DNA from: Pseudomonas sp. LS44
GTDB taxonomy: Bacteria; Pseudomonadota; Gammaproteobacteria; Pseudomonadales; Pseudomonadaceae
Direction of reading: 5' to 3'
Assembly (NCBI RefSeq): GCF_024730785.1
Contig: NZ_CP102830.1
Coordinates: 2,418,001-2,482,000, forward strand
DNA length: 64,000 nucleotides
A model generated the notes under the pieces. It worked only from the letters and a program-made list of their open reading frames with translations, had not been told where the DNA came from and searched no databases. Positions within the stretch are counted from its first letter, which is position 1; every line of letters begins with the position of its first letter. Of this stretch, positions 28,037-33,806 are shown piece by piece. A program made the position numbers and the translations under genes.

Positions 28037-29404
28037 ATGAAAACAACAATGATGAAAATGGGTGTCTTGGCGCTGAGCCTACTGGCCTCCAGCGTGATGG
28101 CCGCCGTCTCTCAGCAGGAAGCCGACAAGTTGGGCACCACCCTGACCCCGGTAGGCGCGCAGAAGGAAGGCAACGCCGACGGCAGCATCCCAGCCTGGGA
28201 CGGCGGCCTGAAACCCGGCGCGGCGCCGGTGGACAGCAATGGCTTCCTCGGCGATCCGTTCGCCGGCGAGCAGCCGCTGTTCACCATCACCGCAGCGAAC
28301 GCCGAGCAGTACAAGGACAAGCTGACCCCAGGGCAACTGGCGATGTTCAAACGCTACGGCGCCAGCTACAAGATTCCGGTGTACAAAACCCACCGCACCG
28401 CCAGCATGCCGCAGGCCGTCTACGATGCCGTGAAGAAGGGTGCGGTGAGCACCGAGCTGACCGATGGCGGCAACGGCCTGGCCAACTTCACCGAAACCCG
28501 CTACACCCCCTTCCCAATTCCAAAAAGCGGCGTCGAGGTGTACTGGAACCATACCAACCGCTACCGCGGCGGCAACACCACTCGCCATGCAGCCCAGGTC
28601 GCGCCGCAGACCGATGGCTCTTACGCTCTCGTCGAATATGGCGACGAGCTGAGCTATCCCCAGCTCATGGATGGAATCAACCCTAACCAGGCCAGCAACC
28701 TCCTATACGTCTACAAGCAGAGCATCACCGCCCCTGCCCGCCTGGCCGGCAACGTCACGCTGGTCCACGAGACCATTGACCAGGTCAAGGAGCCGCGCAT
28801 GGCCTGGATCTACAATGCTGGCCAGCGCCGCGTCCGGCGCGCCCCCCAGGTGGCCTACGACGGCCCAGGCTCAGGCTCCGACGGCATGCGCACCGCCGAC
28901 AACACCGACCTCATGAACGGCGCTCCGGACCGCTACGACTGGAAGCTGGTCGGCAAGACAGAGCGGTACATCCCGTACAACAACTACCAGCTGGCGTCGC
29001 CCAAGCATAAGTACGCCGAGATCATCAAACCCGGCCACATCAACCAGGATCTGACCCGCTACGAACTGCACCGCGTCTGGCATGTCGTTGCCACTCTGAA
29101 GGAGGGTGAGCGACACATCTACGCCAAGCGCGACATGTACTTCGACGAAGACACCTGGCAGTTGGCCGAGGCCGACCACTACGACGGTCGCGGTCAGCTC
29201 TGGAGGGTCGGTGAGGGGTATGCCGTCAACGACTACCAGCACCAGACGCCGCTGAACTCCATGATCGGCATCTATGACCTGATCTCCGGCCGCTACAACG
29301 TCATCGGCATGACCAACGAATCGAAGAAAGCCACTCAATTCGTTGACCGCACCCGGATGAACGATTACACCCCGGCCGCCTTGCGCAACGCGGGCATTCG
29401 CTAA
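28037..29404 (+). CDS. DUF1329 family exported protein, 455 aa
   Basis: Short signal peptide (MKTTMMKMGVLALSLLASSVMAA), then the DUF1329 hallmark region TTLTPVGAQKEGNADGSIPAWDGGL and the later WIYNAGQRRVRRAPQV and ELHRVWHVVATL blocks. DUF1329 proteins resemble outer-membrane lipoprotein-sorting folds and are encoded with DUF1302 partners; together they may move a hydrophobic substrate across the envelope. No lipobox is visible. The gene ends at a strong terminator. Confidence 0.9.
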   Translation: MKTTMMKMGVLALSLLASSVMAAVSQQEADKLGTTLTPVGAQKEGNADGSIPAWDGGLKPGAAPVDSNGFLGDPFAGEQPLFTITAANAEQYKDKLTPGQLAMFKRYGASYKIPVYKTHRTASMPQAVYDAVKKGAVSTELTDGGNGLANFTETRYTPFPIPKSGVEVYWNHTNRYRGGNTTRHAAQVAPQTDGSYALVEYGDELSYPQLMDGINPNQASNLLYVYKQSITAPARLAGNVTLVHETIDQVKEPRMAWIYNAGQRRVRRAPQVAYDGPGSGSDGMRTADNTDLMNGAPDRYDWKLVGKTERYIPYNNYQLASPKHKYAEIIKPGHINQDLTRYELHRVWHVVATLKEGERHIYAKRDMYFDEDTWQLAEADHYDGRGQLWRVGEGYAVNDYQHQTPLNSMIGIYDLISGRYNVIGMTNESKKATQFVDRTRMNDYTPAALRNAGIR

Positions 29405-29470: not shown

Positions 29471-29732
29471 ATGGATGCCTGCAACGGCAAAGGTATTTAG
29501 GCAATTGGCAAGCGTTGAGATCGTTTGCGAAAGGCTAAAAACGGCCAATAGCTGCCGGATGGCAAGGAGCACACGCGCTGTAGATTCGAGCTGCGGCACC
29601 ATCAACGCGGTAGTAAAGCCGAATCTGTTAACTCATCAGCCGCCGTCGCAGACTGCATAAGAGGTAGTGCTCTTCTCGCTTTTCAAAGCAGGTCTCGCCG
29701 TCTCTCGGATAACCCCCCACGGGGGGCATCAG

Positions 29733-32700
29733 TCACCTATTGAGATTGGCGCCAATGCGGGCCAAGCCTTCATCAAGCCTGCGTCGCAAATCCGGGTGAA
29801 GCGTAGGCAAACGGGCAGCCACCCTGGCCAAATCTGCGGCGTGGTAAGCAACAACGCAGTTGCACAAGTAAATGAGCAGCTCTGCGGTCTCGTCGGGATA
29901 GCGTGTAACCGACTCGTTGTCGCGGAGCTCGTACAGCAGACTGCTGTGTTCAATTTGAATCGTCGGAGCGCGAATAGACAACGATACCGCTGAGGGGAAT
30001 GCATCTCCAAGATAAGGCAACCACTCCAGCATCTTGCGAATTTCCGCCTCATCCAGCACAGCAAGCACTCCTTGAAGCCGATCCTGCCAGTAAAGGTGCA
30101 GCCAACTGTCCCATAGCCGTTGCTTGGCATCCTGTTGCATTTGGCGAAGGAAGTATCCGAGATGAGCGGCGAAGCCGGTTCGATCTTCTAATGACCCGTG
30201 CTGGAAGAGCGCCGGTAACAGCTGCTGCATCGGATCAGCGACGTGAAACACGGCAAGCGCTGTGTAGAACTCAACGAAGCGGTGTCTCTGCTTAGGTAGG
30301 ACTGTACCAAGCGACTCTATTGCCGAGATGAAAGCCGGCATCAATGCCTCGACCAGGGCTGGATACAACCTTCCCCATACTAGGAAGCCATCCCAGGCCT
30401 GGGCAAACTTTTGTCTATCAACATCTATAAACAGAGAGACGATGTGTTGCTGTGCCCAAATTTCATCAAGGCTGAACAGAAAAGCCGTCTGACTGGCTAG
30501 CAAACTGCGTCCTAACCCACCCTTCGAGGTTGGGTCCTGCACCACCATCGTGAACCATTGCCGGTAATTTTCAGGAAGGACTCGCTCGGTTCCAGTCTTG
30601 CCGCTCAAGAGCAGCGAAAGGCCATTGATCCAAAACTCGACAATTTTTCCAGCTGGCCGATTGATGGCGCGCGATAACCAGTCGTCAATTTCCTCATCCT
30701 GCTCGTATGGCTCCAAGACGCCCCACACAGGTAGCGCAATTGCATTGGCACACTCCAGTAAGTCGAGAGCAAACGGCTTTCCCCCGTCTCTTACAAGGGC
30801 ATAGAGCAAGCTTGCGATATCGTATGCATGCGACGTATGAAGCTCGGGGTTTGATGCAACTTCCAGCAGGGCGCGCCAACCATCCACTGTTAGCTCAGAT
30901 TCCTGCAACCCTCCAATCACTGCAGGCCATAGATCGGATGTCCATAGCGACCGTTCGACCAAGACCCCGGCAAGAGCGAATGCCCAACTTGCTTTCTGTT
31001 TACATGCTTCTCTGACAGCCACGATCAAGCCATCTCGGTCAGGTCCGTCAAAGCGGCTCCCGTTGAAGGTCAGCAGGTCTTCAATTTGCTCTAAAGGGTC
31101 ACGGGCCAGCATCTGCTCAACGGACCACGGGCTCTGAAAGCCAACCCAGCCCGCCGAACCAGCCCAGTGTGTGAGATCAGGATGCTCCGACGGTCGCCAG
31201 TCCGGAAACTGGGCCTTGATCGGTGTCAACGCTGCTTCTGCCAAACTGCAATCGGGCTTCGACTGCAGTAACCAGGAAAGCCAATTGAAATGCGAGCGCG
31301 CCGTCTGCATTTCGCCAGGCCTGTCGTCGCTCGTCGGCAAAATGTGCGCAAGCACAGCGTCCACGACGGCCTGCCGCACTCCATCACTTGCCGCAGCGTA
31401 GTTCAGGGCTGCCATGCGGTGAACCTCGTGATGCTCCGAGAGCTCATGCAGGCCGACTCGATCCAGCAACCACCTCAAACGCTCGTCCGCCGACTTGCAG
31501 GTATGCACGATGACAGCGTGTATGGATAGCCGCCGCAACAGCGGCACATTCGAGGTGACAAGCCTTTCGATCCATGCATCGAGCAGCGTGGGTGCGTTGG
31601 CGGCGAGCCACTCCAGCGCATCTCGTGCGGCATCGATCACTACATCAATGGCTTCTGGATAGCGATCTTGCTCGTGAGGCTCGATCGCGGAGCGGCCGTA
31701 GCTCACCGGATCCCATTCAGGGGACGCCTTGTCCCAGGCTGCAAGGTCGTGGTGTATATCCTCCAGCCGACTGGTGATTCCGGACAGCAGAGGCTGCGCA
31801 ATCAAAGCCATGTGCGACTGAATGTGGTTGATCCAGATTTCATTCAGCGACCAATGATCAGCACGCAGGATGCAGTCTGCATCCAAGCGTCGGTCGCGTT
31901 CATTATCGTCTCCGTCGTGCCAAACAATGCCGGGCCTGATGGCAAGTCTGTGTTGGCTCATGTGGAGGAACACCTTCAACGTGAGCTGGAAAATTTCATT
32001 GCTGGCGCAGCGCTCCGCAAGCCACATCAGGACGTGGTGGTCCGCAGTGGATGGTGCACTCGCGAGCAAAATCGTGACCCAGCGCTTGAGGGCGGAGTTG
32101 TCCAGCGGCTTGTCCTTTGTGACGCCTAGTTCTCGCCCAATAGACCACCAGAGCACCGGATTAATCCGCAGGCCGTGCGCCGCAACCAAATCGAACATCA
32201 TCTCCGGATGTTCGATGGCAAAATGCTCCGCCAGCCACCAGGCCAGCAAGCGGTCTCGTTCACTGAGGTCTGCTGCATCGAAAAGTGCATCAAGGTGGTT
32301 GCGCGCATCCAGCCACTTGGGCCACTCCACATCTCGCGCGACGCCGACTAGAAAGCGTGTCGTGTGCACCTCGCGCAGCGCCTGTTCGACTTCACCAATA
32401 GCCTCTTCGTCCGCCGGTGGCACGCGGCTCCCCAAATCGGTCAATCGCGTTTGCCAGTCCAGCGCGCCACGCGTTGAACGCTCGGCGAGCTTTTGGATGC
32501 CGTCGTAGAGTTCCTTATAGGCGTCGGCCCCCGAGCCTGTGTTGAATCGAATGGGCTTGATGCCCAGAAGATCCCAGCTTCCATCCTCGTTGGTGAGTGC
32601 GAAGCGTCCTGCGACACCACTTGCAGGCAGGGCGCGCGCGAGGTAATTCATCACGACATCGTTGTGGCTGTAGCCAACGAACAGCACGGTGTATCGGCGG

Positions 32701-33251
32701 AATGCATCAACTAGAAAGCGTCTGGCCCAGCCTTCGGTGAGGTAGGCCCGGCCAAAGTCAGCATCGGTAAGAACAAGGTTCTGCGCATGTGGAAGTGCGC
32801 CATGAAGATGCACGATGCCGGCAAAGTTATATCCCAGCGGTAGCGCTGGAGCTCGATAAATCTCTGGCACGACCCCGAACAGAGCATGGGCCGCGGTCTC
32901 AAAATGCAGATCGAAGTTGGTGGTAACCAGTCTCACATGGTTTGATACGCGAAACAGGCGAAGTAAGTCGTGGTGAAGTGCGTTCGGAGCGCTACCTGAG
33001 GGGGAGAGTAATTGAGCGGCGCGCTCGTGAACGTTCACCTTGCGGTGTTGCAACTGCCCCAGAAAGCGATCTAGAGGATTGGAAGGCACTAACCCTGTTC
33101 CCTGAGCAATATCGCTGGTCAGTTTCTCAAAACTAGCCAGGTTTGATGGTGGTCCCATCGAGACCCCCGCACCAGCAAATATGACAAGCCTGTCGTCACG
33201 CATTGCATCGAATATGCAGTCGTCGAACTCGATAGCCCCGAGCTTCACCAT
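29733..33251 (-). CDS. SIR2-domain / DUF4020-type protein, probable phage defence, 1172 aa
   Basis: The N-terminal 250 residues are a SIR2-like NAD-binding domain: FAGAGVSMG at 25-33, VTTNFD at 109-114 (the Asn-Asp of the active site), IVHLHG at 146-151 with the presumed catalytic His, and LFVGYSHND at 190-198. The remaining 900 residues are helical and end in a region I assign to DUF4020 by architecture. Proteins with SIR2-like N-termini and long helical sensors are known antiphage effectors that deplete NAD on infection, so this is probably a single-gene defence system. GGAG lies seven bases before the ATG at 33251; an in-frame ATG at 33272 is less well placed. Base composition is lower in GC than neighbouring operons, and mobile-element traces lie upstream. 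Confidence 0.8.
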   Translation of the reverse strand: MVKLGAIEFDDCIFDAMRDDRLVIFAGAGVSMGPPSNLASFEKLTSDIAQGTGLVPSNPLDRFLGQLQHRKVNVHERAAQLLSPSGSAPNALHHDLLRLFRVSNHVRLVTTNFDLHFETAAHALFGVVPEIYRAPALPLGYNFAGIVHLHGALPHAQNLVLTDADFGRAYLTEGWARRFLVDAFRRYTVLFVGYSHNDVVMNYLARALPASGVAGRFALTNEDGSWDLLGIKPIRFNTGSGADAYKELYDGIQKLAERSTRGALDWQTRLTDLGSRVPPADEEAIGEVEQALREVHTTRFLVGVARDVEWPKWLDARNHLDALFDAADLSERDRLLAWWLAEHFAIEHPEMMFDLVAAHGLRINPVLWWSIGRELGVTKDKPLDNSALKRWVTILLASAPSTADHHVLMWLAERCASNEIFQLTLKVFLHMSQHRLAIRPGIVWHDGDDNERDRRLDADCILRADHWSLNEIWINHIQSHMALIAQPLLSGITSRLEDIHHDLAAWDKASPEWDPVSYGRSAIEPHEQDRYPEAIDVVIDAARDALEWLAANAPTLLDAWIERLVTSNVPLLRRLSIHAVIVHTCKSADERLRWLLDRVGLHELSEHHEVHRMAALNYAAASDGVRQAVVDAVLAHILPTSDDRPGEMQTARSHFNWLSWLLQSKPDCSLAEAALTPIKAQFPDWRPSEHPDLTHWAGSAGWVGFQSPWSVEQMLARDPLEQIEDLLTFNGSRFDGPDRDGLIVAVREACKQKASWAFALAGVLVERSLWTSDLWPAVIGGLQESELTVDGWRALLEVASNPELHTSHAYDIASLLYALVRDGGKPFALDLLECANAIALPVWGVLEPYEQDEEIDDWLSRAINRPAGKIVEFWINGLSLLLSGKTGTERVLPENYRQWFTMVVQDPTSKGGLGRSLLASQTAFLFSLDEIWAQQHIVSLFIDVDRQKFAQAWDGFLVWGRLYPALVEALMPAFISAIESLGTVLPKQRHRFVEFYTALAVFHVADPMQQLLPALFQHGSLEDRTGFAAHLGYFLRQMQQDAKQRLWDSWLHLYWQDRLQGVLAVLDEAEIRKMLEWLPYLGDAFPSAVSLSIRAPTIQIEHSSLLYELRDNESVTRYPDETAELLIYLCNCVVAYHAADLARVAARLPTLHPDLRRRLDEGLARIGANLNR

Positions 33252-33457
33252 TGATACACTCCAGCCTTCCATTCACTCTGCAATGGAGCTCCATCGATTT
33301 CGATGGAGGCATGCCAGTTCCACTGATTGTGTCAGCTTCCTGATGGGGCAAGCCTGAGCTGATTCTCTATCGTAGACAACTTTGTGATCGGCCACTGGTA
33401 GCCGTTGTGGCGAAGTCCGAAGGTCTTTATTAAAGATCTGAACGTCTGCAAAGGGTC

Positions 33458-33635
33458 GATTCTGTTGAAAAAGTCGGTCCCCGAGAGAGCTGGCTTTCGG
33501 CAGCTCAAAAAGCGCGCGATTTTGGCGTAGCTACGTAAAAACCAAGGCAGTTCTACCTTCCGAGCGAACCAGATTTCAACGTCGCCACCGCTCTTTCGTG
33601 GGGAAAAATCGTGGCGGGACTTTTTCAACAGAATC
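33458..33635. mobile_element. MITE-like element, 178 bp
   Basis: GATTCTGTTGAAAAAGTC at 33458-33475 is the exact reverse complement of 33618-33635. The interior has no intact gene. GGTC directly flanks both ends (33454-33457 and 33636-33639), a possible 4-bp target duplication. The terminal sequence with TTGAAAAAGTC resembles insertion-sequence ends widespread in Pseudomonas. It is probably a nonautonomous element mobilised by a transposase elsewhere. Confidence 0.7.
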
Positions 33636-33646
33636 GGTCGTAAGTA

Positions 33647-33806
33647 GTCATTAACGGGCGGCCGCTTTACCGGCTGCTGCCGATGTTGCCGCAGTTCCTT
33701 CGACGCTACCCCCCATGCCCGTCACCTGCCGTTGCGCGTCAGGGCGCTCATCGATTACCTAATCCAGGACAGCGAAGCGAATTCCATCGCCCCTAGGCTG
33801 CCATGA
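33647..33806 (+). pseudogene. LysR-type regulator remnant
   Basis: One frame reads RPLYRLLPMLPQFLRRYP, like the start of a LysR effector domain. After a frameshift near 33712 the next frame reads HLPLRVRALIDYLIQDSEA and ends at a stop (33804-33806), like a LysR C-terminus. The middle of the domain is missing and the helix-turn-helix part is absent, so this is a deletion remnant next to the MITE. Confidence 0.45.

Follow-up and report, generated by a model that had tools for sequence, protein, structure and literature searches.

The 64,000-nucleotide stretch of Pseudomonas sp. LS44 analysed here (contig NZ_CP102830.1, positions 2,418,001 to 2,482,000; hereafter, the window) carries on its minus strand an intact open reading frame (ORF) for a large SIR2/DUF4020 protein. 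In its longest form, the ORF runs from 33272 to 29733 and encodes 1179 amino acids (aa), and a start at 33251 yields a protein of 1172 aa (1172 codons with no stop among them). The latter start is preferred because it corresponds to M8 of the 1179-aa form, which is invariant in all 39 rows of alignment A1, and because a GGAG sequence is found 7 bases 5' of it. The gene is therefore placed at 29733–33251 on the minus strand. A first-pass annotation made from the DNA letters had proposed the same span with no strand, and regarded the product as a candidate stand-alone phage defence protein. Residue numbers are counted throughout from 33272 (1179-aa form). In base composition, the gene stands apart from its surroundings: its third-position G–C content is 62% vs. 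75–91% in 14 of the 15 other ORFs of the window (the fifteenth, at 61%, looks like a wrong frame), and in 1-kb steps the G–C fraction is 0.53–0.59 across the gene vs. 0.60–0.68 farther off.

Pfam analysis detected both domains of the annotated SIR2/DUF4020 architecture above their gathering scores. SIR2_2 matches residues 115–218 (32619–32930; E-value, 1.4 × 10−18), and DUF4020 matches residues 1019–1142 (29847–30218; E-value, 3.9 × 10−12), both on the minus strand, as are all parts of the gene given below. Based on the Pfam result and on profile matches to solved SIR2 domains beginning at about residue 8, the SIR2 domain spans approximately residues 16–280 (32433–33227). The remainder, about residues 281–1179 (29736–32432), forms a C-terminal region, homologous to that of Dsr1, which is presumed to serve as sensor and regulator. 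The four motifs that had been described as a complete SIR2-like active site were all recovered, namely GAGVS (33159–33173), TTNFD with N119 and D121 (32910–32924), HLHG with H157 (32799–32810), and VGYSHND (32658–32678). In the alignment of relatives, residues G34, A35, G36, S38, T118, N119, D121, H157, G158, G200 and D205 show no variation (70 of 70 rows for each). The invariant catalytic residues correspond to N133 and H171 of DSR2, in which, according to passages of PMC10973363, PMC11087589 and PMC11263360, NAD+ cleavage is lost in the N133A/H171A double mutant and lowered by Y134A, D135A or H171A. As judged by these residues, the SIR2 half is likely an NAD+-cleaving enzyme (NADase).

PADLOC models of Dsr1 match the window protein with a best E-value of 3.1 × 10−65, and when its profile was compared with that of six named Dsr1 proteins, 1138 columns were aligned at 23% identity (E-value, 1.9 × 10−86). 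After removal of the SIR2 part (30-sequence profile), 809 columns were still aligned with Dsr1 (E-value, 8 × 10−45). Since homology extends over both the SIR2 and the C-terminal region, the protein is assigned by sequence to the DSR1 lineage in a wide sense, a kinship added here to the first-pass annotation, which had not named it. With Dsr1 (NF041818; PADLOC PDLC02183, PDLC04166 and PDLC04167) it has in common the N-terminal SIR2_2 domain, the same motifs, and the one-gene organization. However, it is not assigned to Dsr1 proper, but to a separate DUF4020-type branch, because of its score with the NCBIfam Dsr1 equivalog NF041818 (268 bits, below the cutoff of 1400 bits that is passed by all three named Dsr1 scanned), the difference in DUF4020, and its fully supported separate position in a tree. 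Among 41 diverse relatives of the window protein, 36 gave a DUF4020 match; seven scanned plasmid proteins, of which four are named Dsr1 and the other three 'SIR2 family', gave none. In the tree of 76 proteins, the window protein is found among 67 rows that are separated from nine plasmid proteins, namely all seven Dsr1 so named and two of the 'SIR2 family', with a support of 100 for both branches; several rows lie on long branches, of which the tree tool warns. A tenth plasmid protein, from Rhodococcus, groups on the side of the window protein although it lacks DUF4020. With this row left aside, the same groups were separated when a tree was built from either the SIR2 or the C-terminal part by itself (38 rows each). 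The named Dsr1 proteins fetched are about 1194–1281 aa in length, vs. 1172 aa for the window protein. The novelty of the protein is relative: existing PADLOC Dsr1 models match it, so a defence finder may already call it DSR1. A literature search on 'DUF4020' found no paper.

According to passages of PMC10973363 and PMC10952713, DSR1 is anti-phage, and the latter review, citing Garb et al. 2022, states that it blocks phage replication without cell death; by analogy, the outcome of activation in the window protein may therefore be milder than abortive infection. The first-pass annotation had named no trigger for the SIR2/DUF4020 architecture, and neither do the accounts of DSR1 in the parts consulted of PMC10973363, PMC10952713, PMC12700824, PMC12931631, PMC10981675 and PMC11087589. 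The activation of DSR2, on the other hand, has been solved in atomic detail: as described in passages of PMC10973363 and PMC11263360, its C-terminal region binds a phage tail tube protein, and the SIR2 domain is thereby released.

Dsr2 (PADLOC PDLC02184; solved as 8k98, 8wyb and others) resembles the window protein in being a single large protein with a related N-terminal SIR2 domain and a large C-terminal region. In a comparison with a profile built from only two same-genus proteins that match the PADLOC Dsr2 model, the SIR2 part was recognised with a probability of 96%, whereas no homology was detectable between the C-terminal regions. Membership in DSR2 was considered and rejected on the latter result (hhalign probability, 0.1; E-value, 0.59), the two-sequence Dsr2 profile being weak, so that a very remote kinship may have escaped it. 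The Dsr2 model is not among the PADLOC matches of the window protein, nor does it have a match at an E-value of 10−40 in the LS44 genome. Because the C-terminal regions of the two proteins show no homology, the tail-tube trigger of DSR2 cannot be assumed, on sequence grounds, for the window protein, and the same caution applies to presuming such a trigger for every large defence sirtuin. Within the genus, 3 of 249 genomes (loci L140, L141 and L142) carry genes that match the PADLOC Dsr2 model, a rarity similar to that of the SIR2/DUF4020 gene.

When a profile of the 70 sequences was compared with solved structures, matches fell in the SIR2 part and included ThsA, KomC, DSR2 and generically named chains. 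A profile of the C-terminal region gave no credible match (a single hit; E-value, 0.19). By sequence, ThsA of Thoeris and KomC rank with the closest SIR2 domains of solved structure, but the match is confined to the SIR2 part. ThsA is described in a passage of PMC10973363 as partnering with ThsB via a small molecule. The C-terminal SLOG domain of the ThsA type was not found in the window protein, for which Pfam at an E-value of 0.1 gives only SIR2_2 and DUF4020.

To place the gene among its relatives, two peptide patterns were run against the GTDB collection. They returned 208 relatives, and the best 80 of these 208 come from many phyla, many being metagenome bins in which contamination is possible. 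From 22 loci of close relatives, 154 flanking ORFs (at least 110 aa, up to four per side) were sampled, and 125 of them from 21 loci were scanned, mostly short ones having been dropped by hand. The 125 proteins match 136 PADLOC models at an E-value of 10−10; one protein can match many models (16 for one methyltransferase), so that the matching proteins are fewer than 136. Among 25 of the models, type I, IIG and III restriction-modification, BrxA, BrxB, HmaC and QatC are represented, each in one or two proteins. In a control of 104 proteins (from 110 picked; 35 from the window and 69 from eight stretches of the genus), one model matched one protein (mad3). Six of ten large neighbours checked singly match defence models, in five loci, the match in locus L009 being weak. 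In four loci (L003, L025, L044 and L045) a gene matching a defence model directly precedes the SIR2 gene, and HmaC, type III, type I and type IIG/DrmMI-like genes are among those directly upstream of relatives. In L025 (4099–9849; a Hoeflea bin), the SIR2 gene immediately follows the gene of a type I methyltransferase, as though it had been inserted into a restriction-modification operon.

An obligate partner gene was sought by clustering 1097 flanking ORFs from 77 loci and was rejected, as no cluster occurs in more than five loci and those present in five sit at varied positions. On this genomic evidence, the protein would act as a single gene, with no partner. It was also considered that the same NADase might be triggered by a plasmid or another mobile element, since short Argonaute-SIR2 systems, as described in a passage of PMC10981675, detect phage or plasmid DNA, and a relative carried by a phage genome could act against other elements. 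We consider this unlikely, given that the Dsr1 lineage is reported in passages of PMC10973363 and PMC10952713 as anti-phage, and that no Argonaute-like or other partner recurs in the 77 loci.

The phage-borne relative was found by searching viral contigs with the two peptide patterns. It is 57% identical to the window protein over residues 7–1174 and lies on a 52.8-kb contig, where the full-length gene (L143, 5881–9525) is located within a replication/late-regulation region, in reverse orientation to the matched phage genes. Six of its eight tested neighbours match endolysin, Q-like antiterminator, NinB, P-like helicase loader, O-like initiator and CII-like families. Such a setting is the one expected for an accessory gene of a lambda-like phage, and it would suit a resident prophage that excludes other phages. 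The relative is followed, on the same strand, by a gene for a 298-aa protein with no PHROG match. A tblastn search of 50,697 phage records gave no match, and among plasmids 58 records match, the best relative being 29% identical.

Rather than a housekeeping gene conserved at one locus in all relatives, the pattern named at first pass as contrary to a defence role, a patchy distribution was observed. Full-length copies are present in 2 of 398 genomes of the genus, LS44 included, and a third match covers only residues 20–281; among 57 relatives, there were three matches, of which the single full-length one is that of LS44 itself. In the 16 kb taken around the second Pseudomonas copy, only window positions 29729–33314 match (77% identity by blastn), so that the shared DNA reaches beyond the gene by 63 bases upstream of the start and 4 bases downstream of the stop. 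Eight stretches of the genus with the DUF1302–DUF1329 gene pair (L108–L115) all lack the SIR2/DUF4020 gene. A search for an empty site yielded no clean before/after pair, the right-hand neighbour being found at an E-value of 10−150 in only two of nine genomes, on other contigs. Comparison with the nearest relative gave a ratio of nonsynonymous to synonymous substitution rates (dN/dS) of 0.085 for the SIR2 part and 0.100 for the C-terminal region, which indicates purifying selection in the lineage; for five more distant relatives, synonymous change is near or at saturation.

Based on these results, the gene was probably acquired by horizontal transfer and probably encodes a stand-alone NADase directed against phages, in the DUF4020-type branch of the DSR1 lineage. 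The candidate phage defence role proposed at first pass is thereby strengthened: it is favoured by the two Pfam domains, the invariant catalytic residues and the full-length Dsr1 homology with its PADLOC matches, by flanks of relatives that are rich in defence genes next to a near-empty control, by the phage-borne copy and the lack of a recurring partner, and by the rarity of the gene, its base composition, and dN/dS values of about 0.1 in both halves. By analogy with DSR2, the C-terminal region of about 900 residues would most likely hold the SIR2 domain inactive in healthy cells. Binding of an infection product, presumably of phage origin, to this region would open the SIR2 pocket and lead to NAD+ cleavage at the N119/D121/H157 site, after which the phage would no longer be supported by the cell.

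Several observations weigh against this interpretation. In a single-sequence phmmer search, the best-scoring chain of solved structure bears the deposited name 'NAD-dependent protein deacetylase'; the score with NF041818 is far under its cutoff; in 10 of 75 relatives, stops or frame changes break the gene, owing either to decay or to an error of assembly; no defence gene was seen beside the gene in the window, whose 35 other proteins scanned with the control include at most its single match (mad3); and this control was drawn mostly from catabolic loci, with no matching for organism. The SIR2 fold, the name of the phmmer chain and the strong conservation of the protein would also suit a cellular enzyme with no role in defence, either an NAD-dependent deacetylase or an NAD-signalling enzyme. 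Such an enzyme is very unlikely, as 396 of 398 genomes of the genus have no full-length copy, the relatives have no common locus and lie among defence genes, and the Pfam match is of the SIR2_2 type, not the classical SIR2 family.

For the putative anti-phage NADase, conservation of the C-terminal region bears on what may be sensed. Mean identity to the majority residue is 0.86 in the SIR2 part and 0.80 in the rest among the 39 closest of the matches listed, whose named sources include Pseudomonadota, Sumerlaeota and Planctomycetes, and 0.63 and 0.50, respectively, in the 70-sequence set. No hypervariable block was seen at a resolution of 30 residues. Such conservation hints, and only hints, that the sensor is not racing against one phage protein. 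It may be speculated, though this is rather unlikely, that proteins of the DUF4020-type branch form a third class of defence sirtuins, with a sensor that responds to a feature of unusual constancy (for example, a fold conserved among phages, or a change that many phages bring about in the host) and not to one fast-changing phage epitope. This conjecture draws on the conserved sensor with no hypervariable block, the sources from several phyla, the similar constraint on both halves, and the copy in a lambda-like phage, which must avoid or delay triggering its own passenger. Being encoded by one gene, well conserved and widespread, the branch is a good subject for finding out what a DSR1-type sensor detects.

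Signs of mobility were also sought in the loci of relatives. The Phage_integrase family is matched by 4 of the 125 flanking proteins, and one cluster of related proteins present in five loci includes two tested integrases. A transfer-messenger RNA gene (L009) and a tRNA gene (L008) each lie less than 1 kb downstream of the relative's gene, and in L004 a tRNA gene lies beside an integrase; the tRNA scan found none in the other 8 of the 11 loci scanned and none in the window. The L007 copy has, 45 bases upstream, a GTTAGGC sequence reminiscent of the recombination sites of integrons, which had prompted the idea of a cassette; no matching downstream pair was found. This idea was rejected, as a strict motif search found an attC-like pair within 260 bases downstream in none of 77 loci. 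The GTTRRRY motif occurs within 120 bases upstream in 9 of the 77, and a looser count over whole loci exceeded two hits in L055 only.

In the window, the neighbouring genes belong to families (DUF1302, DUF1329, two acyl-CoA dehydrogenases, an alpha/beta hydrolase and a GntR regulator) that fit the insertion among catabolic operons described at first pass. The miniature inverted-repeat transposable element (MITE) reported beside the gene proved to be real: it occupies about 184 bp upstream of the gene (33454–33637), with imperfect 28-base terminal inverted repeats (arms at 33457–33484 and 33609–33636), and is regarded as a neighbour, not as a demonstrated part of the system. One copy was found in the LS44 genome, homologues are present in 25 of 298 genomes of the genus, LS44 included (best other copy, 86% identical), and six Pseudomonas plasmid records contain partial matches. 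The catabolic neighbours and the adjoining MITE, together with a crude consensus scan that gave no sigma-70-like promoter, could point to an inert passenger, a gene carried in by mobile DNA that is either silent or without function in this strain. That the gene is such a passenger is very improbable in view of its 1172 open codons, its intact active site, and the dN/dS of about 0.1 to the nearest relative, a value that speaks for the lineage and not for the time since arrival. The dead regulator reported beside the gene fared less well than the MITE: two short LysR-like stretches in two frames can be seen by eye at about 33665–33805, whereas local blastx against flanking ORFs gave nothing convincing, leaving this possible remnant with no database support. 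The end of the DUF1329 gene (window 28037–29404) has a second copy in the LS44 genome, with 80% DNA identity (G000:C1:2272034-2272732).

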